Shown here: positions 16,119 through 54,687 of the stretch, one piece after another
Numbering within the stretch: position 1 is the first letter of the stretch
How the letters are laid out: the number at the start of each line of letters is the position of its first letter
Assembly (NCBI GenBank): GCA_032622095.1
Contig: CP136068.1
Location: 125,369,989-125,433,988 of the forward strand
Direction: 5' to 3'
DNA length: 64,000 nucleotides
DNA from: Siphonodentalium dalli
Lineage: Eukaryota > Mollusca > Scaphopoda > Gadilida > Siphonodentaliidae
Program-made: the position numbers and the translations under genes
Notes under the pieces: generated by a model
What the model saw: only the letters and a program-made list of their open reading frames with translations
Told to the model about the DNA's origin: nothing
Databases searched by the model: none

Positions 16119-16440
16119 AATGATTTGGGGGACTTTGTTGAGTTGATGTAGATGTGTATCGCTTACAATCATGGAAGTTTTCCCGGCTAATCAATTAAAT
16201 GTTTATAGCAATATCGATTCACAAAAGTCACAATAAATATGCAACCTCGAGTTATGATCGATGGTATAGCTAATTAAGGTACGATGAAATAGCCTTTTAA
16301 GGAACAAGTGTTAACAAAGACATTTATTCCCTGTGTTGTTTATTCATTGTTAGAAAGTTCCCCGTAAAGCAGGTCAGAACATCAAATAGTTCGCAGGTTT
16401 TGATTGGTTGGAATGTGATCTCTACTGACGTATTTAATTA
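16119..16440 (+). repeat. Copy of the satellite-associated dispersed element (element E)
   Basis: From ttcacaaaagtcacaa to gtgatctctactgacgta this matches the unique segment after each satellite block (49670-49875 and 54480-54687), sharing gaacaagtgttaacaaa, tttattcattgttagaaagt and tccccg...aacatcaaa. Upstream, gcttacaatcatggaagttt and ggctaatcaattaaatg recur at 22691-22744. This shows that the satellite's neighbour is an interspersed repeat. Confidence 0.75.
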
Positions 16441-20665: not shown

Positions 20666-20691
20666 CACAGACAGACAGACAGACATTCGCA

Positions 20692-20713
20692 AATATATAT
20701 ATATATATATAGC

Positions 20714-20742: not shown

Positions 20743-20745
<3 letters not shown>

Positions 20746-21016
20746 GCTAGTGTCGTCGCTTAAACGGTTTATGTGTGTGAGGGGGGTTTGAGATCTATTG
20801 GGCGATGCTCTGCCGAGTCCAATATATGCCAAATCCCCCGAGCGGACATATAGGGTGCATTTACACTGATATAGAACTGTATACAGATATGTATGAAGTC
20901 ACGTGTCGCGCATCACTGTGATCACAATATGATTACTAATAGTGAACGCGCGCTGATCAGTACTCTAGTAATTGGCAATTCACTACGAGTCGTTTCAGTT
21001 TAGGCCAGACATAAAA

Positions 21017-21049
21017 ATGGATCTACCATCAGCAGACAACAGCGATATG
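21017..21049 (+). CDS. Candidate short first coding exon
   Basis: ATG in a good context (ataaaaATGG) opens 11 codons, MDLPSADNSDM, ending at a GTATGT donor. No downstream exon was identified. It may be chance; it is listed because start context and donor coincide in a stretch that is not repetitive. Confidence 0.2.
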
Positions 21050-21299
21050 GTATGTGCCGCATGTATTTAAAGTGTATCCTTATACCACTTGACAATGGTT
21101 CGAAGAAAGAATGAAAATCGCACAGGAATATACAATAAACAACAGTATACACAAATAGAGGCTAGAGAGCACACATATATCTTTAGATGGAGATTCACCA
21201 ATATTTAGGATTTCAGGTGATCAACTATATATATATATATATATAGGCCTCCTGTTTGACATCATCTGGGGCATACTGGGCGGTGGTCATTTTGGATCT

Positions 21300-21740
21300 G
21301 TATGGAATGGGTATCCAATCTACAACACCCTTTATTTGACCAAATGTAGTAAAATTTCCAACTGATGACAATTTCAATGACAATGTTGACCAAATGTAGG
21401 ACAATATTGTTTTATTAAATTAACTAGCAGTTTTTGACTGGCCACGGGGAGGGATCAGGACACAATCTTTCCAAGTGTCTGACATTTCCAACCTGACACC
21501 CGCCCCCATGATAAGGTTGGAAAATTTCCAGCTGATGGCCATTCCAGCCCAATTTTTTTTTATAAAAGTAGGAGATTATGCAAATATTGGTCCGAAAACA
21601 ATAACTCCCCCCCCCCAATAAAATGTTTGAAAATCAAACTACAAGATCATTTTCAACCTATTGTTGGTTTGGAAATTACAGCTAATGTCGTGTCAGGTAT
21701 GAAATTTCCAACTGTTGAAAATTGTGACCAAAGTTGCCAC
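21300..21740. repeat. Dispersed repeat, copy 2 of 3
   Basis: Partner of 14860-15135: gatggccattcc, tttataaaagtaggagatta, tttcaacctattg and atgaaatttccaactgttg all recur in the same order. An internal poly-C run (21606-21616) replaces unrelated bases. The flanking 20743-21300 and 21740-22660 hold nothing that I recognise apart from the short exon candidate, a small (AT)n at about 21226 and a CRE-like tgacgtca at 22341. Confidence 0.5.
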
Positions 21741-22807
21741 GTCCCTGTCCGTGTTCAATATTCGAAATACACGGGTTGAAATGACAACGAAACTAAAACA
21801 CATTCGCCAAGCCCGAGTAACAATTAATCAAAACTGATTTGCCTGTCGCAGTGCTTCGGCGTTGACCGTGACGTATAGCGGACACGATTTTTCCTCACAC
21901 GAACTTATACCGTTTTCTTTCTGTGTGCATTTCTATATCAACCCGTTTACACTAGTCTGCGTGTAGATATATGTGCAGTTCTATAGCAATGTAAATGCAC
22001 CCTAACCGTTTAAGTGACAGCATTAGCTACATATTTTATTTATCCATCGCTCAAAACTTGCCTTTTGTGGGGGTATTCTGTCATTTTTGTAAGTTTTTCG
22101 TTCATTACTTCGATGACCGCATTACATTTATGAGGTCAAGCAAACTAATTAGTATTCATGACATGGCAAAACGAAGTGTAGCTTAGAGCGAAATAGTTCG
22201 TTAGCTTATTATACAGTTATTCTAAGCCGATCTTGTTCTGATGATTTATATAATTTTTATAGCTAAAACATATATTCTTTTACTAAAATTTGTACCAATA
22301 ACAGTGCATTATGAACGATATAAACGTTCTCAAATCCCAATGACGTCATTTAGGCCAGTTGACGACCCTAGTTACCTGCGCAATTTGAATATATAATTAC
22401 GTCATGAAAGTAGTACTAACCTAATTAAAGCTACGTTGACCTAATAAAGCTACATTGACTTAATAAACGGCTTTATGTAGTCAATAGAGGTAGGGAGTGG
22501 TGGATAAATATTGGGCATGCGAGCTTATTAAGAAACAAACTTTCAAACGCTATAGTGACTCTTCGTGGCCTTTTATATTATAAACGCCTCGATCAAACAT
22601 AATTAGTTAACACGTTTCTTAAAAATGTGTTCCACAGTAGGTGAAGGTTACAGCTCGAGATTGCGTGATTGAGTGGACTTTTTGAGCCGAATGAGATGTA
22701 AATCGCTTAAAATCGTGGAAGTTTTCGCGGCCTATCAATTAAATGGGGTTTATCATAACCCATTAACTGTACAATCCAGTACACGTCCCTCTCTCTTTGA
22801 AACCCAA

Positions 22808-23045
22808 CTCTACACTACCTTATCTCTGCTTTATTCATCTCCAAACGCTAATATAATTACCAATTTTATTCATCTTTCAGTTATTTTATTCACTCAAATT
22901 CAATTCCAGTACATCTCTCTCTGATCCCCCCCCAAAATATCTACCTATACTACCTTACCTCTGCTTTTACATATCTAAATACTATACTATATTTATCAAT
23001 TTTGTTTATCTTTCAGTTATATATTATATTCACTCAAATTCATAC
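22808..23045. repeat. Diverged ~136-bp tandem pair
   Basis: tacactaccttatctctgct, ccaattttattcatctttc and tattcactcaaattca recur in order about 136 bp later. Non-coding, pyrimidine-rich. Confidence 0.6.
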
Positions 23046-23409
23046 ACAATTATTGTTATATATTTATACACTAAGTGTTGTCATCACTAAATCCAGCATT
23101 CTGATTGGTCGGCGCCCACGTGGCTAGTTGCAGTTATTTCTCGGTGAATGCGCAACGCCTAATAACACCAAGCTAATAACACCATCGATACGTCATTAGG
23201 TTTGGAAAGACAAACGCGTAATGCCTTGGGCGCATTTTGACTCGCGCAGGATTGACTTAATACATAATCGGGTTTCAACATGAAGAGAAATTGTTCCTAT
23301 TAACTTTTGCCAAGGGTGCTATTGGGTATTTTGGGCTGATCTTGTCACGATACACTTTTCGATTTAAATATATTTACAAAAGTGGCTTTATCGCTAAATG
23401 AATATAAAT

Positions 23410-23570
23410 ATAAGGATTAACTGTCATGTGGACTATTTTGATGGAGATGTAACGGTGAGATAAGTGAACATAACTTGTATGTAAAACCCTTCGGGTTTTA
23501 CACAAGTTATGTCCACTTACCTCACCGTTACATCTCCATAAAAACAGTCCACATGACAGTTAATCCTTAT
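23410..23570. mobile_element. 161-bp foldback element
   Basis: Near-perfect inverted repeat: ataaggattaactgtcatgt at the left, acatgacagttaatccttat at the right, arms ~76 bp, with centre aaaacccttcgggtttt. The RNA or DNA could form one long hairpin. A MITE with the interior reduced to nothing is likely; no clear target-site duplication. Confidence 0.8.
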
Positions 23571-23832
23571 GTATAACCTGACGTAATTGGTTCATCCCAT
23601 CTTACGAGAAACCAGAAATATAAATATACCATAATTACATAATCATTGCTTGGTGCATAAATCTCTGAACACCTAATCATAAAAATCGACCATTTAGAAA
23701 GAAAACACTAACATGTATAAAATATAGACAAAACTATATTAACTGTTTGCAAGTTTATTTGATGCACTGTTCTCTGCTTGGACCTGTCCTGGTGGGCGGA
23801 TTGCCGTTTGCAAGACTAGTTAATATGTCAAG

Positions 23833-24007
23833 TTCACGATGAACTGTTCGCGGGATGAGGTGTTATGTATATATATACCTTTATTTCCTCCAATTTCGGA
23901 GAGCAGTATTAACATAATTACAGGTTACATGTATATATATATATATACATACATACTAATATAGCAAAATGCTTGATGTCGAATCCGTTCCATAACAACA
24001 TAATAGC
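23833..24007 (+). repeat. Single-monomer copy of the satellite plus its right flank
   Basis: 23833-23869 matches one 40-bp satellite monomer (tcacgatgaactgttcgcgg, then gatgaggtgttatgta; about 32 of 37 bases). After ~85 bases of AT-rich sequence, 23955-24007 (actaatatagcaaaatgctt, gatgtcgaatccgttcc) matches the segment that follows both satellite blocks (49551-49603, 54363-54415). Thus monomer and flank occur together, unamplified, ~10 kb from the array and just upstream of the P2X7-like gene. Confidence 0.75.
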
Positions 24008-24114
24008 AACCACCAAGGGTGCTTATACCTAAGGCATGTGAATGACGTCATATAATTTTTTCTATATCCATCAGTGATTTTTCAAGATCGAAGGGTATAG
24101 ATTTTGGAGAAATT

Positions 24115-24341
24115 GTCACGTGACTTCCGGTTAGCAACCGTGTGGAGATTGCAAAAAAAAATATTCAATGTTATACGGCTAGTTTGGTGTGAATAAGGTT
24201 CAAATATAACATCCAATAAAAACTTAGATATAATTTTATCAATAAACGTGTTTTTAGCGACTTTTAAAAATCGATTATTATTTCTAAGGTGATTTTGCTC
24301 GAGTCACGTGACCGCAAAACCCGTGACGTCAAAGTGGGAAC
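24115..24341 (+). promoter_or_regulatory. Candidate promoter of the P2X7-like gene
   Basis: Two GTCACGTGAC E-box palindromes (24115-24124 and 24303-24312), an ETS-type cttccgg next to the first, and a full CRE TGACGTCA (24324-24331) precede the ATG at 24371. The 21-bp block 24321-24341 (ccgtgacgtcaaagtgggaa plus c) recurs with one mismatch, inverted, upstream of the THAP exon. No clear TATA box sits at a fixed distance. Confidence 0.5.
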
Positions 24342-24370
24342 TGCCACTGCAGACGAACTGTTTACGAAAA

Positions 24371-26608: not shown

Positions 26609-26824
26609 GTTCAATCTGTCTATGCTACCTTTTATGTGTTTCGGATCCTGGTGGCATTGTAGCATTCATCGTGGTTATTATTTTAAGATGGCCTATCTCT
26701 TTCTATAACAAGATTTATGTAGTTTTCTGGGTATAAAATTATAAATATGATTTGAAGACCCCAGCCCGGAAACCCTTCTATCAATGAATATTGTTTTTAT
26801 TTTGAATATTCTGATAATACATGC

Positions 26825-26969: not shown

Positions 26970-27096
26970 ATAGCAGAAAATTTTAAATCAAATCAATATT
27001 AATTGATACTTTGATAGGGATCTTTGATTCATATTTTTTATTTTATACACAGAACACTATATAATATTTGTAATAGTTATAGGAAGTATTTTGTTG

Positions 27097-33621: not shown

Positions 33622-34090
33622 TTCTTGGTGCACATAAATGTCGCTAGTGGCTTTTTGCTTTTGGGATGCAAATTTTCGACGTCAAAACTGCTTTAAAAAC
33701 ACGATTTTGACGCTATGAGTTGGTGTTTTCGAATAAGTTTCGTTTTTAGTGACCTTAATTCTATGTAATGACACTGGTATAGTTTATTTTGCTGAACAAT
33801 TATGTTTATTAACAGTTCCCTTTTAAGTCTATTAAATTTATTTAGACCAATTTCGTTGGTCAGCTTAATGAAAACGAAAAATAAAGAACTCATAACGATA
33901 ATCCAGACAAGATTTTACAATCCACGACACGTCTTGCCAATTTGGCATGTCGTCTCCATCGTGACCATGATGTTACATAAATTATTCTTAGCGTTAAATT
34001 ATATGTCGCCGAAAAAAGGTAAATTTGAGGCACATGTGTGGTTGCTCCACAACGTGTCACGCACGATTCATAATATTAGTATTATTTATG

Positions 34091-37000
34091 TGTTATGTAA
34101 TGTTCTCGATGTACCGTTGGCGGGATGGGGTGTCATGTAATGTTTTCGATGTACTGTTGGCGGGATGGGGTGTCATGTAATGTTTTCGATGTACTGTTGG
34201 TGGGCTGGGGTGTCATGTAATGTTCTCGATGTACTGTTGGCGGGATGGGGTGTTATGTAATGTTCTCGATGTACTGTTGGTGGGATGGGGTGTCATGTAA
34301 TGTTCTCGATGTACTGTTGGTGGGCTGGGGTGTCATGTAATGTTCTCGATGTACTGTTGGTGGGATGGGGTGTCATGTAATGTTCTCGATGTACTGTTGG
34401 TTGGATGGGGTGACATGTAATGTTCTCGATGTACTGTTGGCGGGATTGGGTGTCATGTAATGTTCTCGGTGTACTGTTGGTGGGATGGGGTGTCATGTAA
34501 TGTTCTCGATGTACTGTTGGCGGGATGGGGTGTCATGTAATGTTCTCGATGTACTGTTGGTGGGATGGGGTGTCATGTAATGTTCTCGATGTACTGTTGG
34601 CGGGATGGGGTGTCATGTAATGTTCTCGATGTACCGTTGGCGGGATGGGGTGTCATGTAATGTTCTCGATGTACCGTTGGCGGGATGGGGTGTCATGTAA
34701 TGTTCTCGATGTACTGTTGGCGGGATGGGGTGTCATGTAATGTTCTCGATGTACCGTTGGCGGGATGGGGTGTCATGTAATGTTCTCGATGTACTGTTGG
34801 CGGGATGGGGTGTTATGTAACGTTCTCGATGTACTGTTGGTGGGATGGGGTGTCATGTAATGTTCTCGATGTACTGTTGGTGGGCTGGGGTGTCATGTAA
34901 TGTTCTCGATGTACTGTTGGTGGGATGGGGTGACATGTAACGTTCTCGATGTACTGTTGGTGGGATGGGGTGTTATGTAATGTTCTCGATGTACTGTTGG
35001 CGGGATGGGGTGTTATGTAATGTTCTCGATGTACTGTTGGTGGGATGGGGTGTTATGTAATGTTTTCGATGTACTGTTGGTGGGCTGGGGTGTCATGTAA
35101 TGTTCTCGATGTACTGTTGGCGGGATGGGGTGTTATGTAACGTTCTCGATGTACTGTTGGTGGGATGGGGTGTCATGTAATGTTCTCGATGTACTGTTGG
35201 TGGGATGGGGTGTCATGTAATGTTTTCGGTGTACTGTTGGCGGGATGGGGTGACATGTAATGTTCTCGATGTACTGTTGGTGGGATGGGGTGTCATGTAA
35301 TGTTCTCGATGTACTGTTGGCGGGATGGGGTGACATGTAACGTTCTCGATGTACTGTTGGTGGGATGGGGTGTCATGTAATGTTTTCGGTGTACTGTTGG
35401 CGGGATGGGGTGACATGTAATGTTCTCGATGTACTGTTGGTGGGATGGGGTGTCATGTAATGTTTTCGGTGTACTGTTGGTGGGATGGGGTGTCATGTAA
35501 TGTTATCGATGTACCGTTGGTGGGATGGGGTGACATGTAATGTTCTCGATGTACTGTTGGTGGGATGGGGTGTCATGTAATGTTCTCGATGTACTGTTGG
35601 CGGGATGGGGTGACATGTAACGTTCTCGATGTACTGTTGGTGGAATGGGGTGTCATGTAATGTTTTCGGTGTACTGTTGGCGGGATGGGGTGACATGTAA
35701 TGTTCTCGATGTACTGTTGGTGGGATGGGGTGTCATGTAATGTTTTCGGTGTACTGTTGGTGGGATGGGGTGTCATGTAATGTTATCGATGTACCGTTGG
35801 TGGGATGGGGTGACATGTAATGTTCTCGATGTACTGTTGGTGGGATGGGGTGTCATGTAATGTTCTCGATGTACTGTTGGCGGGATGGGGTGTCATGTAA
35901 TGTTATCGATGTACTGTTGGTGGGATGGGGTGTCATGTAATGTTCTCGATGTACTGTTGGTGGGATGGGGTGTCATGTAATGTTCTCGATGTACTGTTGG
36001 CGGGATGGGGTGTCATGTAATGTTCTCGATGTACTGTTGGCGGGATGGGGTGACATGTAATGTTCTCGATGTACTGTTGGTGGGATGGGGTGTCATGTAA
36101 TGTTCTCGATGTACTGTTGGCGGGATGGGGTGTCATGTAATGTTCTCGATGTACTGTTGGCGGGATGGGGTGTCATGTAATGTTCTCGATGTACTGTTGG
36201 TGGGATGGGGTGTTATGTAATGTTCTCGATGTACTGTTGGTGGGATGGGGTGTCATGTAATGTTTTCGGTGTACTGTTGGCGGGATGGGGTGACATGTAA
36301 TGTTCTCGATGTACTGTTGGTGGGATGGGGTGTCATGTAATGTTCTCGATGTACTGTTGGCGGGATGGGGTGTCATGTAATGTTCTCGATGTACTGTTGG
36401 CGGGATGGGGTGTCATGTAATGTTCTCGATGTACTGTTGGCGGGATGGGGTGTCATGTAATGTTCTCGATGTACTGTTGGTGGGATGGGGTGTCATGTAA
36501 TGTTCTCGATGTACTGTTGGCGGGATGGGGTGTCATGTAATGTTCTCGATGTACTGTTGGTGGGATGGGGTGTTATGTAATGTTCTCGATGTACTGTTGG
36601 TGGGATGGGGTGACATGTAACGTTCTCGATGTACTGTTGGTGGGATGGGGTGTCATGTAATGTTTTCGGTGTACTGTTGGCGGGATGGGGTGACATGTAA
36701 TGTTCTCGATGTACTGTTGGTGGGATGGGGTGTCATGTAATGTTCTCGATGTACTGTTGGCGGGATGGGGTGTCATGTAATGTTCTCGATGTACTGTTGG
36801 TGGGATGGGGTGTCATGTAATGTTTTCGATGTACTGTTGGCGGGATGGGGTGTTATGTAATGTTCTCGATGTACTGTTTGCGGGATGGAGTGTCATGTAA
36901 TGTTCTCGATGTACTGTTGGTGGGATGGGGTGTCATGTAATGTTCTCGATGTACTGTTGGTGGGATGGGGTGTCATGTAATGTTCTCGATGTACTGTTGG

Positions 37001-40000
37001 TGGGATGGGGTGACATGTAATGTTCTCGATGTACTGTTGGTGGGATGGGGTGTCATGTAATGTTTTCGGTGTACTGTTGGCGGGATGGGGTGTTATGTAA
37101 TGTTCTCGATGTACTGTTGGCGGGATGGGGTGACATGTAATGTTCTCGATGTACTGTTGGTGGGATGGGGTGTCATGTAATGTTTTCGGTGAACTGTTGG
37201 CGGGATGGGGTGTCATGTAATGTTCTCGATGTACTGTTGGTGGGACGGGGTGTCATGTAATGTTCTCTATGTACTGTTGGTGGGATGGGGTGTTATGTAA
37301 TGTTCTCGATGTACTGTTGGCGGGATGGGGTGACATGTAATGTTTTCGGTGTACTGTTGGTGGGCTGGGGTGTCATGTAATGTTCTCGATGTACTGTTGG
37401 TGGGCTGGGGTGTCATGTAATGTTCTCGATGTACTGTTGGTGGGATGGGGTGTCATGTAATGTTCTCGATGTACTGTTGGTGGGTTGGGGTGTCATGTAA
37501 TGTTCTCGATGTACTGTTGGCGGGATGGGTTGTCATGTAATGTTCTCGATGTACTGTTGGCGGGATTGGGTGTCATGTAATGTTCTCGATGTACTGTTGG
37601 TGGGATGGGGTGTCATGTAATGTTCTCGATGTACTGTTGGTGGGATGGGGTGTCATGTAATGTTCTCGATGTACTGTTGGTGGGTTGGGGTGTCATGTAA
37701 TGTTCTCGATGTACTGTTGGCGGGATGGGTTGTCATGTAATGTTCTCGATGTACTGTTGGCGGGATTGGGTGTCATGTAATGTTCTCGATGTACTGTTGG
37801 TGGGATGGGGTGTCATGTAATGTTCTCGATGTACTGTTGGTGAGATGGGGTGTCATGTAATGTTTTCGATGTACTGCTGGTGGGCTGGGGTGTCATGTAA
37901 TGTTCTCGATGTACTGTTGGCGGGATGGGGTGTCATGTAATGTTCTCGATGTACTGTTGGCGGGATGGGGTGTCATGTAATGTTATCGATGTACTGTTGG
38001 CGGGATGGGGTGTCATGTAATGTTCTCTATGTACTGTTGGTGGGATGGGGTGTCATGTAATGTTTTCGGTGTACTGTTGGTGGGATGGGGTGACATGTAA
38101 CGTTCTCGATGTACTGTTGGTGGGATAGGGTGTCATGTAATGTTCTCGATGTACTGTTGGCGGGATGGGGTGTCATGTAATGTTCTCGATGTACTGTTGG
38201 TGGGATGGGGTGTCATGTAATGTTCTCGATGTACTGTTGGTGGGATGGGGTGTTATGTAATGTTCTCGATGTACTGTTGGCGGGATGGGGTGACATGTAA
38301 TGTTTTCGGTGTACTGTTGGTGGGCTGGGGTGTCATGTAATGTTCTCGATGTACTGTTGGTGGGCTGGGGTGTCATGTAATGTTCTCGATGTACTGTTGG
38401 TGGGATGGGGTGTCATGTAATGTTATCGATGTACTGTTGGTGGGATGGGGTGTCATGTAATGTTCTCGATGTACTGTTGGTGGGATGGGGTGTCATGTAA
38501 TGTTCTCGATGTACTGTTGGTGGGATGGGGTGTCATGTAATGTTTTCGATGTACTGCTGGTGGGCTGGGGTGTCATGTAATGTTCTCGATGTACTGTTGG
38601 CGGGATGGGGTGTCATGTAATGTTCTCGATGTACTGTTGGTGGGATGGGGTGTCATGTAATGTTCTCGATGTACTGTTGGTGGGATGGGGTGTCATGTAA
38701 TGTTCTCGATGTACTGTTGGTGGGATGGGGTGTCATGTAATGTTCTCGATGTACTGTTGGTGGGATGGGGTGTCATGTAATGTTCTCGATGTACTGTTGG
38801 TGGGATGGGGTGTCATGTAATGTTCTCGATGTACTGGTGGTGGGATGGGGTGTCATGTAATGTTATCGATGTACTGTTGGTGGGATGGGGTGTCATGTAA
38901 TGTTCTCGATGTACTGTTGGTGGGATGGGGTGTCATGTAATGTTCTCGATGTACTGTTGGTGGGATGGGGTGTCATGTAATGTTTTCGATGTACTGCTGG
39001 TGGGCTGGGGTGTCATGTAATGTTCTCGATGTACTGTTGGCGGGATGGGGTGTCATGTAATGTTCTCGATGTACTGTTGGTGGGATGGGGTGTCATGTAA
39101 TGTTCTCGATGTACTGTTGGTGGGATGGGGTGTCATGTAATGTTCTCGATGTACTGTTGGTGGGATGGGGTGTCATGTAATGTTCTCGATGTACTGGTGG
39201 TGGGATGGGGTGACATGTAATGTTCTCGATGTACTGTTGGCGGGATGGGGTGTCATGTAATGTTCTCGATGTACTGTTGGTGGGATGGGGTGTCATGTAA
39301 TGTTCTCGATGTACTGTTGGCGGGATGGGTTGTCATGTAATGTTCTCGATGTACTGTTGGCGGGATGGGGTGTTATGTAATGTTCTCGATGTACTGTTGG
39401 CGGGATGGGGTGTCATGTAATGTTCTCGATGTACTGTTGGTGGGATGGGGTGTCATGTAATGTTCTCGATGTACTGTTGGCGGGATGGGGTGTCATGTAA
39501 TGTTCTCGATGTACTGATGGCGGGATGGGTTGTCATGTAATGTTCTCGATGTACTGTTGGTGGGATGGGGTGTCATGTAATGTTCTCGATGTACTGTTGG
39601 TGGGATGGGGTGTCATGTAATGTTCTCGATGTACTGTTGGCGGGATGGGGTGTCATGTAATGTTCTCGATGTACTGTTGGCGGGATGGGTTGTCATGTAA
39701 TGTTCTCGATGTACTGTTGGCGGGATGGGTTGTCATGTAATGTTCTCGATGTACTGTTGGTGGGATGGGGTGTCATGTAATGTTCTCGATGTACTGTTGG
39801 CGGGATGGGGTGTTATGTAATGTTCTCGATGTACTGTTGGTGGGATGGGGTGTCATGTAATGTTCTCGATGTACTGTTGGTGGGATGGGGTGTCATGTAA
39901 TGTTCTCGATGTACTGGTGGTGGGATGGGTTGTCATGTAATGTTCTCGATGTACTGTTGGCGGGATGGGGTGTTATGTAATGTTCTCGATGTACTGTTGG

Positions 40001-43000
40001 CGGGATGGGGTGTCATGTAATGTTCTCGATGTACTGTTGGTGGGATGGGGTGTCATGTAATGTTCTCGATGTACTGTTGGCGGGATGGGGTGTCATGTAA
40101 TGTTCTCGATGTACTGTTGGCGGGATGGGTTGTCATGTAATGTTCTCGATGTACTGTTGGTGGGATGGGGTGTCATGTAATGTTCTCGATGTACTGTTGG
40201 CGGGATGGGGTGTCATGTAATGTTCTCGATGTACTGTTGGCGGGATGGGGTGTCATGTAATGTTCTCGATGTACTGTTGGCGGGATGGGGTGTCATGTAA
40301 TGTTCTCGATGTACTGTTGGCGGGATGGGGTGTCATGTAATGTTCTCGATGTACTGTTGGCGGGATGGGGTGTTATGTAATGTTCTCGATGTACTGTTGG
40401 CGGGATGGGGTGTCATGTAATGTTCTCGATGTACTGTTGGCGGGATGGGGTGTTATGTAATGTTCTCGATGTACTGTTGGTGGGTTGGGGTGTCATGTAA
40501 TGTTCTCGATGTACTGTTGGCGGGATGGGTTGTCATGTAATGTTCTCGATGTACTGTTGGCGGGATTGGGTGTCATGTAATGTTCTCGATGTACTGTTGG
40601 TGGGATGGGGTGTCATGTAATGTTCTCGATGTACTGTTGGTGAGATGGGGTGTCATGTAATGTTTTCGATGTACTGCTGGTGGGCTGGGGTGTCATGTAA
40701 TGTTCTCGATGTACTGTTGGCGGGATGGGGTGTCATGTAATGTTCTCGATGTACTGTTGGCGGGATGGGGTGTCATGTAATGTTATCGATGTACTGTTGG
40801 CGGGATGGGGTGTCATGTAATGTTCTCTATGTACTGTTGGTGGGATGGGGTGTCATGTAATGTTTTCGGTGTACTGTTGGTGGGATGGGGTGACATGTAA
40901 CGTTCTCGATGTACTGTTGGTGGGATAGGGTGTCATGTAATGTTCTCGATGTACTGTTGGCGGGATGGGGTGTCATGTAATGTTCTCGATGTACTGTTGG
41001 TGGGATGGGGTGTCATGTAATGTTCTCGATGTACTGTTGGTGGGATGGGGTGTTATGTAATGTTCTCGATGTACTGTTGGCGGGATGGGGTGACATGTAA
41101 TGTTTTCGGTGTACTGTTGGTGGGCTGGGGTGTCATGTAATGTTCTCGATGTACTGTTGGTGGGCTGGGGTGTCATGTAATGTTCTCGATGTACTGTTGG
41201 TGGGATGGGGTGTCATGTAATGTTATCGATGTACTGTTGGTGGGATGGGGTGTCATGTAATGTTCTCGATGTACTGTTGGTGGGATGGGGTGTCATGTAA
41301 TGTTCTCGATGTACTGTTGGTGGGATGGGGTGTCATGTAATGTTTTCGATGTACTGCTGGTGGGCTGGGGTGTCATGTAATGTTCTCGATGTACTGTTGG
41401 CGGGATGGGGTGTCATGTAATGTTCTCGATGTACTGTTGGTGGGATGGGGTGTCATGTAATGTTCTCGATGTACTGTTGGTGGGATGGGGTGTCATGTAA
41501 TGTTCTCGATGTACTGTTGGTGGGATGGGGTGTCATGTAATGTTCTCGATGTACTGTTGGTGGGATGGGGTGTCATGTAATGTTCTCGATGTACTGTTGG
41601 TGGGATGGGGTGTCATGTAATGTTCTCGATGTACTGGTGGTGGGATGGGGTGTCATGTAATGTTATCGATGTACTGTTGGTGGGATGGGGTGTCATGTAA
41701 TGTTCTCGATGTACTGTTGGTGGGATGGGGTGTCATGTAATGTTCTCGATGTACTGTTGGTGGGATGGGGTGTCATGTAATGTTTTCGATGTACTGCTGG
41801 TGGGCTGGGGTGTCATGTAATGTTCTCGATGTACTGTTGGCGGGATGGGGTGTCATGTAATGTTCTCGATGTACTGTTGGTGGGATGGGGTGTCATGTAA
41901 TGTTCTCGATGTACTGTTGGTGGGATGGGGTGTCATGTAATGTTCTCGATGTACTGTTGGTGGGATGGGGTGTCATGTAATGTTCTCGATGTACTGGTGG
42001 TGGGATGGGGTGACATGTAATGTTCTCGATGTACTGTTGGCGGGATGGGGTGTCATGTAATGTTCTCGATGTACTGTTGGTGGGATGGGGTGTCATGTAA
42101 TGTTCTCGATGTACTGTTGGCGGGATGGGTTGTCATGTAATGTTCTCGATGTACTGTTGGCGGGATGGGGTGTTATGTAATGTTCTCGATGTACTGTTGG
42201 CGGGATGGGGTGTCATGTAATGTTCTCGATGTACTGTTGGTGGGATGGGGTGTCATGTAATGTTCTCGATGTACTGTTGGCGGGATGGGGTGTCATGTAA
42301 TGTTCTCGATGTACTGATGGCGGGATGGGTTGTCATGTAATGTTCTCGATGTACTGTTGGTGGGATGGGGTGTCATGTAATGTTCTCGATGTACTGTTGG
42401 TGGGATGGGGTGTCATGTAATGTTCTCGATGTACTGTTGGCGGGATGGGGTGTCATGTAATGTTCTCGATGTACTGTTGGCGGGATGGGTTGTCATGTAA
42501 TGTTCTCGATGTACTGTTGGCGGGATGGGTTGTCATGTAATGTTCTCGATGTACTGTTGGTGGGATGGGGTGTCATGTAATGTTCTCGATGTACTGTTGG
42601 CGGGATGGGGTGTTATGTAATGTTCTCGATGTACTGTTGGTGGGATGGGGTGTCATGTAATGTTCTCGGTGTACTGTTGGTGGGATGGGGTGTCATGTAA
42701 TGTTCTCGATGTACTGGTGGTGGGATGGGTTGTCATGTAATGTTCTCGATGTACTGTTGGCGGGATGGGGTGTTATGTAATGTTCTCGATGTACTGTTGG
42801 CGGGATGGGGTGTCATGTAATGTTCTCGATGTACTGTTGGTGGGATGGGGTGTCATGTAATGTTCTCGATGTACTGTTGGCGGGATGGGGTGTCATGTAA
42901 TGTTCTCGATGTACTGTTGGCGGGATGGGTTGTCATGTAATGTTCTCGATGTACTGTTGGTGGGATGGGGTGTCATGTAATGTTCTCGATGTACTGTTGG

Positions 43001-46000
43001 CGGGATGGGGTGTCATGTAATGTTCTCGATGTACTGTTGGCGGGATGGGGTGTCATGTAATGTTCTCGATGTACTGTTGGCGGGATGGGGTGTCATGTAA
43101 TGTTCTCGATGTACTGTTGGCGGGATGGGGTGTCATGTAATGTTCTCGATGTACTGTTGGCGGGATGGGGTGTTATGTAATGTTCTCGATGTACTGTTGG
43201 CGGGATGGGGTGTCATGTAATGTTCTCGATGTACTGTTGGCGGGATGGGGTGTTATGTAATGTTCTCGATGTACTGTTGGTGGGATGGGGTGTCATGTAA
43301 TGTTCTCGATGTACTGTTGGCGGGATGGGGTGTCATGTAATGTTCTCGATGTACTGTTGGCGGGATGGGGTGTCATGTAATGTTCTCGATGTACTGTTGG
43401 CGGGATGGGGTGTCATGTAATGTTCTCGATGTACTGTTGGCGGGATGGGGTGTCATGTAATGTTCTCGATGTACTGTTGGCGGGATGGGTTGTCATGTAA
43501 TGTTCTCGATGTACTGTTGGTGGGATGGGGTGTCATGTAATGTTCTCGATGTACTGTTGGCGGGATGGGGTGTTATGTAATGTTCTCGATGTACTGTTGG
43601 TGGGATGGGGTGTCATGTAATGTTCTCGATGTACTGTTGGCGGGATGGGGTGTCATGTAATGTTCTCGATGTACTGTTGGCGGGATGGGGTGTCATGTAA
43701 TGTTCTCGATGTACTGTTGGCGGGATGGGGTGTCATGTAATGTTCTCGATGTACTGTTGGCGGGATGGGTTGTCATGTAATGTTCTCGATGTACTGTTGG
43801 TGGGATGGGGTGTCATGTAATGTTCTCGATGTACTGTTGGCGGGATGGGGTGTCATGTAATGTTCTCGATGTACTGTTGGCGGGATGGGGTGTCATGTAA
43901 TGTTCTCGATGTACTGTTGGCGGGATGGGGTGTCATGTAATGTTCTCGATGTACTGTTGGCGGGATGGGGTGTCATGTAATGTTCTCGATGTACTGTTGG
44001 CGGGATGGGGTGTCATGTAATGTTCTCGATGTACTGTTGGCGGGATGGGGTGTCATGTAATGTTCTCGATGTACTGTTGGCGGGATGGGGTGTCATGTAA
44101 TGTTCTCGATGTACTGTTGGTGGGATGGGGTGTCATGTAATGTTCTCGATGTACTGTTGGTGGGATGGGGTGTCATGTAATGTTCTCGATGTACTGTTGG
44201 CGGGATGGGGTGTCATGTAATGTTCTCGATGTACTGTTGGTGGGATGGGGTGTCATGTAATGTTCTCGATGTACTGTTGGCGGGATGGGGTGTCATGTAA
44301 TGTTCTCGATGTACTGTTGGTGGGATGGGGTGTCATGTAATGTTCTCGATGTACTGTTGGTGGGATAGGGTGTCATGTAATGTTCTCGATGTACTGTTGG
44401 TGGGATGGGGTGTCATGTAATGTTCTCGATGTACTGTTGGTGGGATGGGGTGTCATGTAATGTTCTCGATGTACTGTTGGCGGGATGGGGTGTCATGTAA
44501 TGTTCTCGATGTACTGTTGGCGGGATGGGGTGTTATGTAATGTTCTCGATGCACTGTTGGCGGGATGGGGTGTCATGTAATGTTCTCGATGTACTGTTGG
44601 TGGGATTGGGTGTCATGTAATGTTCTCGATGTACTGTTGGTGGGATGGGGTGTCATGTAATGTTCTCGATGTACTGTTGGCGGGATGGGGTGTCATGTAA
44701 TGTTCTCGATGTACTGTTGGTGGGATGGGGTGTCATGTAATGTTCTCGATGTACTGTTGGTGGGATAGGGTGTCATGTAATGTTCTCGATGTACTGTTGG
44801 TGGGATGGGGTGTCATGTAATGTTCTCGATGTACTGTTGGTGGGATGGGGTGTCATGTAATGTTCTCGATGTACTGTTGGCGGGATGGGGTGTCATGTAA
44901 TGTTCTCGATGTACTGTTGGTGGGATTGGGTGTCATGTAATGTTCTCGATGTACTGTTGGTGGGATGGGGTTTCATGTAATGTTATCGATGTACTGTTGG
45001 CGGGATGGGGTGTCATGTAATGTTCTCGATGTACTGTTGGTGGGATGGGGTGTCATGTAATGTTCTCGATGTACTGTTGGTGGGATGGGGTGTCATGTAA
45101 TGTTCTCGATGTACTGTTGGCGGGATGGGGTGTCATGTAATGTTCTCGATGTACTGTTGGTGGGATGGGGTGTCATGTAATGTTCTCGATGTACTGTTGG
45201 CGGGATGGGGTGTCATGTAATGTTCTCGATGTACTGTTGGCGGGATGGGTTGTCATGTAATGTTCTCGATGTACTGTTGGTGGGATTGGGTGTCATGTAA
45301 TGTTCTCGATGTACTGTTGGTGGGATGGGGTGTCATGTAATGTTCTCGATGTACTGTTGGCGGGATGGGGTGTCATGTAATGTTCTCGATGTACTGTTGG
45401 TGGGATGGGGTGTCATGTAATGTTCTCGATGTACTGTTGGTGGGATGGGGTGTCATGTAATGTTCTCGATGTACTGTTGGCGGGATGGGGTGTCATGTAA
45501 TGTTCTCGATGTACTGTTGGTGGGATGGGGTGTCATGTAATGTTCTCGATGTACTGTTGGCGGGATGGGGTGTCATGTAATGTTCTCGATGTACTGTTGG
45601 CGGGATGGGGTGTCATGTAATGTTCTCGATGTACTGTTGGTGGGCTGGGGTGTCATGTAATGTTCTCGATGTACTGTTGGTGGGATGGGGTGTCATGTAA
45701 TGTTCTCGATGTACTGTTGGCGGGATGGGGTGTCATGTAATGTTCTCGATGTACTGTTGGCGGGATGGGGTGTCATGTAATGTTCTCGATGTACTGTTGG
45801 TGGGCTGGGGTGTCATGTAATGTTCTCGATGTACTGTTGGCGGGATGGGGTGACATGTAATGTTCTCGATGTACTGTTGGCGGGATGGGGTGACATGTAA
45901 TGTTATCGATGTACCGTTGGTGGGATGGGGTGTCATGTAATGTTCTCGATGTACTGTTGGTGGGATGGGGTGACATGTAATGTTCTCGATGTACTGTTGG

Positions 46001-49000
46001 CGGGATGGGGTGTCATGTAATGTTCTCGATGTACTGTTGGTGGGATGGGGTGACATGTAATGTTCTCGATGTACTGTTGGCGGGATGGGTTGTCATGTAA
46101 TGTTCTCGATGTACTGTTGGCGGGATGGGGTGTCATGTAATGTTCTCGATGTACTGTTGGTGGGATGGGGTGACATGTAATGTTCTCGATGTACTGTTGG
46201 CGGGATGGGGTGTCATGTAATGTTCTCGATGTACTGTTGGCGGGATGGGGTGACATGTAATGTTCTCGATGTACTGTTGGCGGGATGGGGTGTCATGTAA
46301 TGTTCTCGATGTACTGTTGGCGGGATGGGGTGTCATGTAATGTTCTCGATGTACTGTTGGTGGGATGGGGTGACATGTAATGTTCTCGATGTACTGTTGG
46401 CGGGATGGGGTGTCATGTAATGTTCTCGATGTACTGTTGGCGGGATGGGGTGTCATGTAATGTTCTCGATGTACTGTTGGCGGGATGGGGTGACATGTAA
46501 TGTTCTCGATGTACTGTTGGCGGGATGGGGTGACATGTAATGTTCTCGATGTACTGTTGGTGGGCTGGGGTGTCATGTAATGTTCTCGATGTACTGTTGG
46601 CGGGATGGGGTGACATGTAATGTTCTCGATGTACTGTTGGCGGGATGGGGTGACATGTAATGTTCTCGATGTACTGTTGGTGGGCTGGGGTGTCATGTAA
46701 TGTTCTCGATGTACTGTTGGCGGGATGGGGTGTCATGTAATGTTCTCGATGTACTGTTGGCGGGATGGGGTGTTATGTAATGTTCTCGATGTACTGTTGG
46801 TGGGATGGGGTGTCATGTAATGTTCTCGATGTACTGTTGGTGGGATGGGGTGACATGTAATGTTCTCGATGTACTGTTGGTGGGATGGGGTGACATGTAA
46901 TGTTCTCGATGTACTGTTGGTGGGCTGGGGTGTCATGTAATGTTCTCGATGTACTGTTGGCGGGATGGGGTGACATGTAATGTTCTCGATGTACTGTTGG
47001 CGGGATGGGGTGACATGTAATGTTCTCGATGTACTGTTGGTGGGCTGGGGTGTCATGTAATGTTCTCGATGTACTGTTGGCGGGATGGGGTGTCATGTAA
47101 TGTTCTCGATGTACTGTTGGCGGGATGGGGTGTTATGTAATGTTCTCGATGTACTGTTGGTGGGATGGGGTGTCATGTAATGTTCTCGATGTACTGTTGG
47201 TGGGATGGGGTGACATGTAATGTTCTCGATGTACTGTTGGTGGGCTGGGGTGTCATGTAATGTTCTCGATGTACTGTTGGTGGGATGGGGTGTCATGTAA
47301 TGTTCTCGATGTACTGTTGGTGGGATGGGGTGACATGTAATGTTCTCGATGTACTGTTGGCGGGATGGGGTGACATGTAATGTTCTCGATGTACTGTTGG
47401 CGGGATGGGGTGTCATGTAATGTTCTCGATGTACTGTTGGTGGGATGGGGTGTCATGTAATGTTCTCGATGTACTGTTGGCGGGATGGGGTGTCATGTAA
47501 TGTTCTCGATGTACTGTTGGCGGGATGGGGTGACATGTAATGTTCTCGGTGTACTGTTGGCGGGATGGGGTGACATGTAATGTTCTCGGTGTACTGTTGG
47601 CGGGATGGGGTGTCATGTGATGTTCTCGATGTACTGTTGGTGGGATGGGGTGTCATGTAATGTTCTCGATGTACTGTTGGTGGGCTGAGGTGTCATGTAA
47701 TGTTCTCGATGTACTGTTGGCGGGATGGGGTGACATGTAATGTTCTCGATGTACTGTTGGCGGGATGGGGTGTCATGTAATGTTCTCGATGTACTGTTGG
47801 TGGGCTGGGGTGTTATGTAATGTTCTCGATGTACTGTTGGTGGGCTGGGGTGTCATGTAATGTTCTCGATGTACTGTTGGTGGGCTGAGGTGTCATGTAA
47901 TGTTCTCGATGTACTGTTGGTGGGATGGGGTGTCATGTAATGTTCTCGATGTACTGTTGGTGGGATGGGGTGTCATGTAATGTTCTCGATGTACTGTTGG
48001 CGGGATGGGGTGTCATGTAATGTTCTCGATGTACCGTTGGCGGGATGGGGTGTTATGTAATGTTTTTGGTGTACTGTTGGTGGGATGGGGTGACATGTAA
48101 TGTTCTCGATGTACTGTTGGCGGGATGGGGTGTCACGTAATGTTCTCGATGTACTGTTGGCGGGATGGGGTGTCATGTAATGTTCTCGATGTACTGTTGG
48201 CGGGATGGGGTGTCATGTAATGTTCTCGATGTACTGTTGGCGGGATGGGGTGTCATGTAATGTTCTCGATGTACTGGTGGTGGGATGGGGTGTTATGTAA
48301 TGTTCTCGATGTACTGTTGGTGGGATGGAGTGTCATGTAATGTTCTCGATGTACTGTTGGTGGGATGGGGTGTCATGTAATGTGCTCGATGTACTGTTGG
48401 CGGGATGGGGTGTCATGTAATGTTCTCGATGTACTGTTGGCGGATGCGGTGTCATGTAATGTTCTCGATGTACTGTTGGTGGGATGGGGTGTCATGTAAT
48501 GTGCTCGATGTACTGTTGGCGGGATGGGGTGTCATGTAATGTTCTCGATGTACTGTTGGCGGATGCGGTGTTATGTAATGTTCTCGATGTACCGTTGGTG
48601 GGATGGGGTGTCATGTAATGTTTTCGGTGTACTGTTGGTGGGATGGGGTGTCATGTAATGTTCTCGATGTACTGTTGGCGGGATGGGGTGTTATGTAATG
48701 TTCTCGATGTACTGTTGGCGGGATGGGGTGTCATGTAATGTTCTCGATGTACTGTTGGCGGGATGGGGTGTCATGTAATGTTCTCGATGTACTGTTGGTG
48801 GGATGGGGTGTCATGTAATGTTCTCGATGTACTATTGGTGGGATGGGGTGTCATGTAATGTTCTCGATGTACTGTTGGTGGGCTGGGGTGTCATGTAATG
48901 TTCTCGATGTACTGTTGGCGGGATGGGGTGTCATGTAATGTTCTCGATGTACTGTTGGTGGGATGGGGTGTCATGTAATGTTCTCGATGTACTGTTGGCG

Positions 49001-49546
49001 GGATGGGGTGTCATGTAATGTTCTCGATGTACTGTTGGTGGGCTGGGGTGTCATGTAATGTTCTCGATGTACTGTTGGCGGGATGGGGTGACATGTAATG
49101 TTCTCGATGTACTGTTGGTGGGATGGGGTGTCATGTAATGTTCTCGGTGTACTGTTGGCGGGATGGGGTGTCATGTAATGTTCTCGATGTACTGTTGGCG
49201 GGATGGGGTGTCATGTAATGTTCTCGATGTACTGTTGGTGGGATGGGGTGTCATGTAATGTTCTCGATGTACTGTTGGCGGGATGGGGTGTCATGTAATG
49301 TTCTCGATGTACTGTTGGTGGGCTGGGGTGTCATGTAATGTTCTCGATGTACTGTTGGCGGATGCGGTGTCATGTAATGTTCTCGATGTACTGGTGGTGG
49401 GATGGGGTGTCATGTAATGTTCTGGATGTACTGTTGGCGGGATGGGGTGTCATGTAATGTTCTGGATGTACTGTTGGCGGGATGGGGTGTCATGTAATGT
49501 TCTCGGTGTACTCTTGGCGGGATGGGGTGTTATGTAATGTTCTCGG
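34091..49546. repeat. 40-bp satellite, block 1, about 386 monomers
   Basis: Head-to-tail monomers run from tgttctcgat (first ten bases) through gtactgttgg, ygggatgggg and tgtcatgtaa. From 34101 to 48420 the 40-base register never slips (358 monomers). Then three 39-base monomers with cggatgcgg occur (48441, 48560, 49359). Common variants: ggc/ggt, tact/tacc, gtcatg/gacatg/gttatg, tctcgat/ttcggt. The + strand is G- and T-rich (15 G, 14 T, 5 C, 6 A per monomer). Since 40 is not a multiple of 3, the reverse strand reads a 40-residue cycle; those frames end wherever the common gtcatg variant supplies TGA and are not genes. Confidence 0.97.
37661..43260. repeat. 2.8-kb higher-order duplication within the satellite
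   Basis: Blocks 37661-40460 and 40461-43260 carry the same sequence of monomer variants at an offset of 2800 bases (70 monomers), for example tgggttgggg at 37681 and 40481, gtactgctgg at 38551 and 41351, and tgggataggg at 38121 and 40921. At least one difference exists (tgttctcgat at 39861, tgttctcggt at 42661). Shorter duplications of 5, 9, 10 and 11 monomers are also visible. Confidence 0.85.
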
Positions 49547-49875
49547 AAACGACTAATATAGCACGATGCTTGATGTCGAATCCGTTTCCATGACAACATA
49601 ATATTAGTATTATTTGCTATGCTAACATAATGCAATAGTTCATGGAATAAATACTGTTTAAACTAATGTTTAATGAGATGTTGACTCACAAAAGTCACAA
49701 TATATAATATGCAACATCGAGTTATGTTCGATGAAATAGCTAATTAAGGAACAAGTGTTAACAAATAGATATATTCCATGTGGTCGTTTATTCATTGTTA
49801 GAAAGTTCCCCGTTAAAACAGGTCAGAACATCAAACATTCTCAATGGTTGTGATGTGATCTCTACTAGCGTAGCT
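49547..49875 (+). repeat. Satellite right-flank segment, copy 1 (element E)
   Basis: About 330 bases from gaaacgactaatatagcacg to gatctctactagcgtag follow block 1. The same segment follows block 2 at 54359-54687 with about seven differences including one 1-bp indel. Its right half also occurs at 16210-16440 and its left 50 bases at 23955-24007. Confidence 0.95.
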
Positions 49876-50001
49876 GTAGTTTAGAGACGCATGGCATGGT
49901 CTATAGTCTCGAGTCTATACCGGATATTTAGCAATCAATCCGTGTTTTTCTCAAACCCGGATTTAAACTGGAACTCGTGCGTTAATTTTCACGTCATGCA
50001 T
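49876..50001. other. Unique spacer between satellite blocks
   Basis: Contains catggcatggtctata (related to the 30095 element) and ends with the 28 bases 49973-50000 (actcgtgcgttaattttcac then gtcatgca), which recur at 61752-61779. The satellite restarts immediately after this word. Confidence 0.7.
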
Positions 50002-53000
50002 ACTGTTGGTGGGATGGAGTGTCATGTAATGTTCTCGATGTATTGTTGGTGGGATGGGGTGTCATGTAATGTGCTCGATGTAGTGTTGGTGGGATGGGGT
50101 GTCATGTAATGTTCTCGATGTACTGTTGGTGGGATGGGGTGACATGTAATGTTCTCGATGTACCGTTGGCGGGATGGGGTGTCATGTAATGTTCTCGATG
50201 TACTGTTGGTGGGATGGGGTGACATGTAATGTTCTCGATGTACTGTTGGTGGGATGGGGTGTCATGTAATGTTCTCGATGTACTGTTGGTGGGATGGGGT
50301 GTCATGTAATGTTCTCGATGTACTGTTGGTGGGATGGGGTATCATGTAATGTTTTCGGTGTACTGTTGGCGGGATGGGGTGTCATGTAATGTTCTCGATG
50401 TATTGTTGGTGGGATGGGGTGTCATGTAATGTGCTCGATGTACTGTTGGTGGGATGGGGTGTCATGTAATGTTCTCGATGTACTGTTGGCGGGATGGGGT
50501 GTCATGTAATGTTCTCGATGTACTGTTGGCGGGATGGGGTGTCATGTAATGTTCTCGATGTACTGTTGGCGGGATGGGGTGTCATGTAATGTTCTCGATG
50601 TACTGTTGGTGGGCTGGGGTGTCATGTAATGTTCTCGATGTACTGTTGGTGGGATGGGGTGTCATGTAATGTTCTCGATGTACTGTTGGTGGGATGGGGT
50701 GTCATGTAATGTTCTCGATGTACCGTTGGCGGGATGGGGTGTCATGTAATGTTCTCGATGTACTGTTGGTGGGATGGGGTGTTATGTAATGTTCTCGATG
50801 TACTGTTGGTGGGATGGGGTGTTATGTAATGTTCTCGATGTACTGTTGGCGGGATGGGGTGTTATGTAATGTTCTCGATGTACTGTTGGTGGGATGGGGT
50901 GTCATGTAATGTTCTCGATGTACTGTTGGCGGGATGGGGTGACATGTAATGTTCTCGATGTACTGTTGGCGGGATGGGGTGTCATGTAATGTGCTCGATG
51001 TACTGTTGGTGGGATGGGGTGTCATGTAATGTTCTCGATGTACTGTTGGCGGGATGGGGTGTCATGTAATGTTCTCGATGTACTGTTGGCGGGATGGGGT
51101 GTCATGTAATGTTCTCGATGTACTGTTGGTGGGATGGGGTGTCATGTAATGTTCTCGATGTACTGTTGGTGGGATGGGGTGTCATGTAATGTGCTCGATG
51201 TACTGCTGGTGGGCTGGGGTGTCATGTAATGTTCTCGATGTACTGTTGGTGGGATGGGGTGACATGTAATGTTCTCGATGTACTGTTGGTGGGATGGGGT
51301 GACATGTAATGTTCTCGATGTACTGCTGGTGGGCTGGGGTGTCATGTAATGTTCTCGATGTACTGTTGGCGGGATGGGGTGTCATGTAATGTTCTCGATG
51401 TATTGTTGGTGGGATGGGGTGTCATGTAATGTTCTCGATGTACTGCTGGTGGGCTGGGGTGTCATGTAATGTTCTCGATGTACTGTTGGTGGGATGGGGT
51501 GTCATGTAATGTTCTCGATGTATTGTTGGCGGGATGGGGTGTCATGTAATGTGCTCGATGTACTGTTGGTGGGATGGGGTGTCATGTAATGTTCTCGATG
51601 TACTGTTGGCGGGATGGGGTGTCATGTAATGTTCTCGATGTACTGTTGGTGGGATGGGGTGTCATGTAATGTTTTCGATGTACTGTTGGTGGGATGGGGT
51701 GTCATGTAATGTTTTCGATGTACTGTTGGTGGGATGGGGTGTCATGTAATGTTCTCGATGTACTGTTGGTGGGATGGGGTGTCATGTAATGTGCTCGATG
51801 TACTGTTGGTGGGATGGGGTGTCATGTAATGTTCTCGATGTACTGTTGGCGGGATGGGGTGTCATGTAATGTTCTCGATGTACTGTTGGCGGGATGGGGT
51901 GTCATGTAATGTTCTCGATGTACTGTTGGTGGGATGGGGTGTCATGTAATGTTCTCGATGTACTGTTGGTGGGATGGGGTGTCATGTAATGTGCTCGATG
52001 TACTGTTGGTGGGATGGGGTGTCATGTAATGTTCTCGATGTACTGTTGGTGGGATGGGGTGTCATGTAATGTGCTCGATGTACTGTTGGTGGGATGGGGT
52101 GTCATGTAATGTTCTCGATGTACTGTTGGTGGGATGGGGTGTCATGTAATGTTCTCGATGTACTGTTGGTGGGATGGGGTGTCATGTAATGTTCTCGATG
52201 TACTGTTGGTGGGATGGGGTGTCATGTAATGTTCTCGATGTACTGTTGGTGGGATGGGGTGTCATGTAATGTGCTCGATGTACTGTTGGTGGGATGGGGT
52301 GTCATGTAATGTTCTCGATGTACTGTTGGCGGGATGGGGTGTCATGTAATGTTCTCGATGTACCGTTGGTGGGATGGGGTGTCATGTAATGTTATCGATG
52401 TACTGTTGGTGGGCTGTGGTGTCATGTAATGTTCTCGATGTACTGTTGGTGGGATGGGGTGTCATGTAATGTTCTCGATGTACTGTTGGTGGGATGGGGT
52501 GTCATGTAATGTTCTCGATGTACTGTTGGTGGGATGGGGTGTCATGTAATGTTCTCGATGTACTGTTGGTGGGATGGGGTGTCATGTAATGTGCTCGATG
52601 TACTGTTGGTGGGATGGGGTGTCATGTAATGTTCTCGATGTACTGTTGGTGGGATGGGGTGTCATGTAATGTGCTCGATGTACTGTTGGTGGGATGGGGT
52701 GTCATGTAATGTTCTCGATGTACTGTTGGTGGGATGGGGTGTCATGTAATGTTCTCGATGTACTGTTGGCGGGATGGGGTGTCATGTAATGTTCTCGATG
52801 TACTGTTGGTGGGATGGGGTGTCATGTAATGTTCTCGATGTACTGTTGGCGGGATGGGGTGTCATGTAATGTTCTCGATGTACTGTTGGCGGGATGGGGT
52901 GACATGTAATGTTCTCGATGTACTGTTGGTGGGATGGGGTGTCATGTAATGTTCTCGATGTACTGTTGGCGGGATGGGGTGTCATGTAATGTTCTCGATG

Positions 53001-54358
53001 TACTGTTGGCGGGATGGGGTGTCATGTAATGTTCTCGATGTACTGTTGGCGGGATGGGGTGTCATGTAATGTTCTCGATGTACTGTTGGCGGGATGGGGT
53101 GTCATGTAATGTTCTCGATGTACTGTTGGCGGGATGGGGTGTCATGTAATGTTCTCGATGTACTGTTGGTGGGCTGGGGTGTCATGTAATGTTCTCGATG
53201 TACTTTTGGCGGGATGGGGTGTCATGTAATGTTCTCGATGTACTGTTGGCGGGATGGGGTGTCATGTAATGTTCTCGATGTACTGTTGGCGGGATGGGGT
53301 GACATGTAATGTTCTCGATGTAATGTTGGTGGGATGGGGTGTCATGTAATGTTCTCGATGTACTGTTGGCGGGATGGGGTGTCATGTAATGTTCTCGATG
53401 TACTGTTGGCGGGATGGGGTGTCATGTAATGTTCTCGATGTACTGTTGGCGGGATGGGGTGTCATGTAATGTTCTCGATGTACTGTTGGCGGGATGGGGT
53501 GTCATGTAATGTTCTCGATGTACTGTTGGCGGGATGGGGTGTCATGTAATGTTCTCGATGTACTGTTGGTGGGCTGGGGTGTCATGTAATGTTCTCGATG
53601 TACTGTTGGCGGGATGGGGTGTCATGTAATGTTCTCGATGTACTGTTGGTGGGATGGGGTGTCATGTAATGTTCTCGATGTACTGTTGGCGGGATGGGGT
53701 GTCATGTAATGTTCTCGATGTACTGTTGGTGGGCTGGGGTGTCATGTAATGTTCTCGATGTACTGTTGGCGGGATGGGGTGTCATGTAATGTTCTCGATG
53801 TACTGTTGGTGGGCTGGGGTGTCATGTAATGTTCTCGATGTACTGTTGGCGGGATGGGGTGTCATGTAATGTTCTCGATGTACTGTTGGTGGGATGGGGT
53901 GTCATGTAATGTTCTCGATGTACTGTTGGTGGGATGGGGTGTCATGTAATGTTCTCGATGTACTGTTGGTGGGATGGGGTGTCATGTAATGTTCTCGATG
54001 TACTGTTGGCGGGATGGGGTGTCATGTAATGTTCTCGATGTACTGTTGGTGGGATGGGGTGTCATGTAATGTTCTCGATGTACTGTTGGCGGGATGGGGT
54101 GTCATGTAATGTTCTCGATGTACTGTTGGCGGGATGGGGTGTCATGTAATGTTCTCGATGTACTGTTGGTGGGATGGGGTGTCATGTAATGTTCTCGATG
54201 TACTGTTGGCGGGATGGGGTGTCATGTAATGTTTTCGGTGTACTGTTGGTGGGCTGGGGTGTCATGTAATGTTCTCGATGTACTGTTGGCGGGATGGGGT
54301 GACATGTAATGTTCTCGATGTACTGTTGGCGGGATGGGGTGTTATGTAATGTTCTCGG
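50002..54358. repeat. 40-bp satellite, block 2, about 109 monomers
   Basis: Same monomer and orientation as block 1, with an unbroken 40-base register. The variant tgtgctcgat is frequent here (from 50069) but in block 1 appears only near its right end (48381, 48501), so block 2 is closest to the distal part of block 1. The last monomer in both blocks is a gttatg variant truncated at gttctcgg and followed by aaacgac. Confidence 0.97.
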
Positions 54359-54687
54359 AAACGACTAATATAGCACGATGCTTGATGTCGAATCCGTTTC
54401 CATGACAACATAATATTAGTATTATTTGCTATACTAACATTATGAAATAGTTCATGGAATAAATACTGTTTAAATTAATGTTTAATGAGATGTTGACTCA
54501 CAAAAGTCACAATATATAATATGCAACATCGAGTTATGTTCGATGAAATAGCTAATAAAGGAACAAGTGTTAACAAATAGATATATTCCATGTGTCGTTT
54601 ATTCATTGTTAGAAAGTTCCCCGTTAAAACAGGTCAGAACATCAAACATTCACAATGGTTGTGATGTGATCTCTACTAGCGTAGACT
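54359..54687 (+). repeat. Satellite right-flank segment, copy 2 (element E)
   Basis: Partner of 49547-49875, roughly 98 percent alike by eye. It stops at the same base (ctactagcgtag), after which the two flanks are unrelated, so this point is probably an element terminus. Confidence 0.95.

Follow-up and report, generated by a model that had tools for sequence, protein, structure and literature searches.

How did about 20 kb of a 40-bp satellite arise in the window (the whole stretch of DNA analysed, 64,000 nucleotides), and is a lone monomer-like piece outside the satellite related to its origin? The sequence-only reading had placed a degenerate monomer together with the segment that follows both satellite blocks near 23833-24007, and both matches were reproduced. 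The piece at 23825-23869 was identical to the array monomer at 39 of 45 positions without gaps (E ~2e-10, BLAST inside the window), compared with at most 28/45 for 200 shuffled monomers and 25/45 for the best reverse-strand match outside the array. The segment at 23955-24005 matched 49552-49603 and 54364-54415 with 92.3% identity over 52 bp (E 2.5e-15, BLAST inside the window). The 85 bp between the two pieces (23870-23954) were considered to be an insertion because other copies have about 15 bp at that spot; this stretch was also present in the paralog of the 23.8-kb copy, 75 kb downstream.

Table 1 Features of the window that bear on the satellite and the dispersed element.
Position	Strand	Feature	Basis
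16193..16432	+	second-family copy without LINE 3' end or satellite	74%
22743..23064	+	probable LINE 3' UTR, 5' part, CT-rich, imperfect repeats ~120-140 bp apart	alignment to other copies
23065..23566	.	~500-bp insertion breaking the 23.8-kb copy	flanking pieces contiguous in L025 (1430/1432)
23567..23869	+	probable LINE 3' UTR, middle part, unit at its end	alignment and genome search
23825..23869	+	single unamplified monomer-like unit	39/45 ungapped; with its paralog, closest of 32 sequences compared
23870..23954	.	85-bp TA-rich insertion, also in paralog	~15 bp in other copies
23955..24005	+	probable LINE 3' UTR past the unit; similarity of this copy stops at 24005	92.3% to 54364-54415
34069..34087	+	19-bp LINE 3'-end piece, left array edge	identical to 49597-49615 and 54409-54427
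34090..49551	+	satellite block 1, 40-bp monomers, 386 full	tandem repeat scan, monomer count
49552..49663	+	LINE 3' end after block 1 (end approximate)	family of query 1-115
49660..49874	+	second dispersed family abutting LINE 3' end (start approximate)	family of query 107-323
50001..54363	+	satellite block 2, 108 full monomers	monomer count
54364..54475	+	LINE 3' end after block 2, terminating TGTTTAAATTAA (end approximate)	copy alignments
54471..54684	+	second dispersed family (start approximate)	family of query 107-323

The satellite arrays and their flanks

The tandem scan gave one array at 34090-54357, and the block limits were set by alignments within the window. With the paralogous array included, 840 full monomers were counted (386 + 108 + 346 in the paralog), 90 of them distinct, and their mean identity to the consensus was 0.973, indicating a long homogeneous tandem array of the kind called a satellite. 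A 29-base pattern with three or fewer mismatches had 874 matches in the genome (839 + 35; none for a control pattern), of which 813 fell in the window or within 60 kb beyond it, i.e., in the two paralogous arrays. Elsewhere there were 61 matches; among the 35 listed, 12 belonged to an array on C2 and 23 were single places, and further small arrays may be present among the 26 unlisted ones.

The 321-323 bp after the blocks were composed of two dispersed families with a junction near 54471-54478 (query 1-115 and query 107-323), and 41 matches (40 scored of 1353 candidates) were obtained when the 327 bp following block 2 were searched against the genome. The right part of this flank had been reported to occur without satellite at about 16 kb. 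The match itself was confirmed (Table 1), but it belongs to the second family only, a separate repeat, and is uninformative on the satellite. Inverted arms of 72% identity (15951-16003 and 16373-16425) surround this 16-kb repeat, and two further second-family loci, L014 and L018, show inverted matches too; the second family may be a foldback element.

The paralog array carried the identical 19-bp LINE piece at its left edge, and 50001-54684 was 96.7% identical to its right end and flank. Target-site duplication was rejected as the source of the 19-bp repeat at both array ends, as the right copy was continuous with its family on both sides. Each of the two arrays opened with a monomer of the GTGTTATG form seen in the dispersed copies. 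Block 1 and the paralog, however, had at most six identical monomers in succession in common, and the best self-match of block 1 was found at a lag of 70 monomers (0.965 vs a mean of 0.957). This order would fit a continual turnover by unequal exchange.

The unique flanks of the two paralogs, offset by about 75 kb, had an identity of 98.3-98.9%. Such values lie within the allelic divergence range of some invertebrates, and an artefact of assembly, namely a retained haplotype or a mis-sized array, might account for the paralog array or for some of the array length. We consider this improbable, since 124 kb contained zero N and the paired regions differed by 1.5 and 3.5 kb in length and included stretches of 84-92% identity; the LINE origin of the satellite would stand even in that case.

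The duplicated region had some further features. Positions 15952-32466 formed a segmental duplication with C8 sequence ~75.03-75.06 kb downstream at the flank identity given above. Positions 64-8085 also aligned to this downstream stretch, at different offsets and for the most part with 84-92% identity, 7296-8085 reaching 99%. The right flank of the paralog tracked that of block 1 for about 20 bp (49875-49894) and then matched 60031-60108 at 100%, a switch that represents a rearrangement junction.

Unit copy number and periods across the genome

A search for the first family that used a natural copy as the query found 45 matches, spread over all nine contigs (40 scored of 359 candidates), and one with the middle part gave 43 (40 scored of 133 candidates). 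The flank of this LINE family stood without a long array on nine of nine contigs and is thus not confined to the neighbourhood of long arrays. In the aligned copies, the unit occurred once, with native sequence on either side. It was counted once in 32 of 36 loci, twice in two (L046 and L048) and 13 times in one (L039), one locus (L015) being truncated before the unit; these 36 are no census, as L039, L046, and L048 were fetched for their tandem appearance and two near-duplicate pairs (L021/L022 and L024/L027) are among them. Counting monomers per copy, a check proposed along with the idea that the monomer belongs to a dispersed element, accordingly bore that idea out. L025, one of the 32, had a single unit that carried a deletion.

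Excluded from the 36 were array or second-family loci (L001-L005, L009-L011, L014, L016, and L018), downstream stretches (L033-L038), extra cuts of the C2 array (L040-L045), and near-identical loci (L007, L008, L013, L020, L026, and L047). The unit scan skipped L022 and L027, and the core pattern was empty on the kept strand of L025, L053, and L061; the one-unit counts of these loci were taken from the alignments.

Tandem forms were also found away from the C8 array. At C2:151.41M, 13 tandem units of 63 bp had LINE sequence on both sides. Two units of about 63 bp were present at C2:207.48M and 207.19M with the same junction as in the 13-unit locus, and these loci, sharing one junction, may go back to one event. 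At C6:155.30M there were two 53-bp units, a form seen at two identical places only (40 scored of 42 candidates). The periods were hence 40 bp on C8, 63 bp on C2, and 53 bp on C6, the C2 and C6 junctions differing from that on C8, and by eye the units of all three periods began near ATATGTCRAYTTCACG. A gapped pattern for other periods (495 + 886 matches, controls 16 + 2) was discarded as too loose. Its listed places, all on C1, were mostly an unrelated G-rich minisatellite of ~68 bp (GGGATGGGGTGGTGGGTGGGTACTACC...).

Wherever a repeat forms arrays and is carried by a mobile element as well, the reverse direction can be proposed: the satellite would be older, and the LINE would have captured one monomer and then spread it, a course that is discussed for plant Ogre elements (PMC7004042). 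We regard it as very unlikely in the present case, as each of the nine contigs had diverged copies of the single-unit form (mostly 74-87% identity), the long array was at one locus and its monomers matched their consensus at 97%, and periods of 63 and 53 bp are not expected from a captured 40-bp monomer.

Identity of the dispersed element

The dispersed copies had a common 3' end (AATAAATACTGTTTAAACTAA), 27 of the 36 loci ending within ten bases (427-436 of the reference copy), whereas the 5' starts took 29 distinct values from 1 to 310, which is the pattern of a LINE. Most copies read were 5'-truncated with the unit present once. Copies on C9, C3, and C7 began matching at query 104-109 of window:22640-23064, and L025 and L073 extended farther 5' than the copy starting at 22743. 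Flanking duplications in 17 copies, out of 28 copy ends listed, had a mean of 4.3 bp vs 2.8 ± 0.5 bp in 500 shuffles (maximum 4.4), at least one shuffle exceeding the observed mean. The longest was 11 bp, in one copy, and three of the 17 lacked a duplication of at least 4 bp.

Coding remains were found upstream of the 3' UTR. The frames of L069 (the L025 locus) and L078 were 57% and 62% identical, respectively, to the C-terminal part of the L082 frame, and the preceding frame of L082 matched Pfam RVT_1 (1.6e-14). The 125-aa C-terminal piece alone gave no match in a Pfam search. The upstream frame has a cysteine-histidine motif, which is typical of LINE ORF2. In L025, a decayed frame was followed by the 3' UTR with the unit and then by the 3' end, and L081, which stops at the edge of the unit, repeated this order that far. 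The stretch of L078 that was read ended in the first part of the 3' UTR, and among the copies read none had an RT domain and this 3' UTR together. Identity of the dispersed element as a LINE is well supported by these results. From the order of frame, UTR, and unit in L025 and the 57% match to an RVT_1-bearing LINE, the 40-bp unit is probably a segment of the LINE 3' UTR.

The sequence-only reading had brought up Helitron/Helentron and pearl-type elements as precedents, with CTRR ends as a mark of Helitrons. Helitrons end in CTRR, followed by T. Among 28 ends inspected by eye, 14 copies ended in CTRR (13 CTAA and one CTGA) and only two of these had T next, and the end shared by the copies was the 3' one; neither a T after CTRR nor a fixed 5' end was a regular feature of the copies. 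An element of this type, its central repeats seeding the satellite, has precedents in oyster and Drosophila (PMC7492417), and the 3' UTR, whose 5' part contains a CT microsatellite and imperfect ~120-bp repeats, would suit it, but it is hardly credible given the variable 5' and common 3' ends, the 12 of 14 CTRR-ending copies without the following T, and the LINE-type frame remains upstream.

Growth of the arrays and related systems

We consider it very likely that the ~20-kb satellite grew from a normally single segment of the LINE 3' UTR that was duplicated and expanded in one C8 copy. Amplification in one copy had been proposed before, and the single-unit family and the native 3' end after the array speak for it; two further periods and paralogous arrays were observed besides. 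In the proposed course, the LINE, a non-LTR retrotransposon, would at the start have had a single 40-bp unit in its 3' UTR. In one C8 copy, the segment would have been duplicated, probably between two imperfect direct repeats with a spacing of 40 bp (ATGTCAAGTTCACG / ATGTAATGTTCTCG type). Replication slippage or unequal exchange would then probably have raised the number of full units to 494 and, in the paralog 75 kb away, to 346. In other copies this segment is tandem with different junctions, as 13 units of 63 bp on C2 and two of 53 bp on C6. Self-similarity at lag 40 ranked fourth of 70 lags in 24 unamplified copies and therefore points only weakly to the direct-repeat step. The C8 array lacks the LINE 5' side on its left, which makes growth in place less evident than on C2.

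The relationship of the 23.8-kb copy to the array was examined with both pieces of the unit region. This copy and its paralog scored 0.897 against the array, and the next of 30 other copies scored 0.859; with the right piece alone, L025 was marginally closer (49/53) than the 23.8-kb copy (48/52). A missing A in AATATAGC and a CTGTT variant were shared by the 23.8-kb copy and the array and occurred in none of the 30 others. The lag and seed comparisons were made with 30 of the 36 loci (without L022, L027, L039, L046, L048, and L054). A tree was discarded, the 23.8-kb copy having been misaligned owing to its insertion, and the comparison given above was used instead. Of the earlier proposal that this copy is the progenitor, close relationship to the seed is supported but identity with the seed is not: it is a sister of the array's seed, closer to it than any other unamplified copy found.

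Satellites from LINE 3' ends are already known. Those listed in a review are the common cetacean satellite (from the L1 3' UTR), a CR1-related satellite of chicken, and 18HT of HeT-A/TART (PMC9659126), which resemble the present case in that a non-LTR retrotransposon supplied the monomer from its 3' part. Here, a 40-bp unit forms a long array at one locus and its paralog, with other periods elsewhere, which may set it apart from the listed cases. In pea and grass pea, according to another account, long arrays arose from 3' UTR repeats of the Ogre LTR-retrotransposon, whose 3' UTRs are hypervariable, with monomers differing in sequence and length; stages of expansion are described as well (PMC7004042). 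Retroelement 3' UTR repeats are thus the array source in both systems, whereas Ogre is an LTR element with short tandem arrays already in its 3' UTRs and the present copies have mostly one unit. A Helentron of Crassostrea gigas carries satellite-like repeats and is similarly a mobile element spreading potential satellite units in an invertebrate (PMC7492417); it is, however, of the rolling-circle type and non-autonomous, and its central repeats are mostly 140-180 bp long, unlike the variable 5' ends and LINE-type frames found here.

The interest of this genome lies in several periods and sizes occurring together, and a limited literature search, covering titles and abstract openings, found no report of several periods from one LINE segment. 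The beginnings of satellites are usually lost, whereas here the source, intermediate copy numbers, other periods, and two long arrays coexist. Seeding and turnover could be measured, because the two paralogs have their monomers in different orders although the flanks are still 98-99% identical.

A tentative possibility is that a ~60-bp segment of the LINE 3' UTR is an intrinsic satellite-seeding hotspot, the period being set by which imperfect internal repeats recombine. By eye, the 40-, 63-, and 53-bp units start within about twenty bases of one place, and unit numbers in this one genome form a series of 1, 2, 13, and ~350-490. If the hotspot existed, this series would represent satellite birth within one genome.

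Other repeats in the window were tandem arrays of 53-bp and 32-bp units with common sequence at 7287-7900, and a short palindromic repeat family with several copies (54964-55071, 55521-55644, and 29223-29339).
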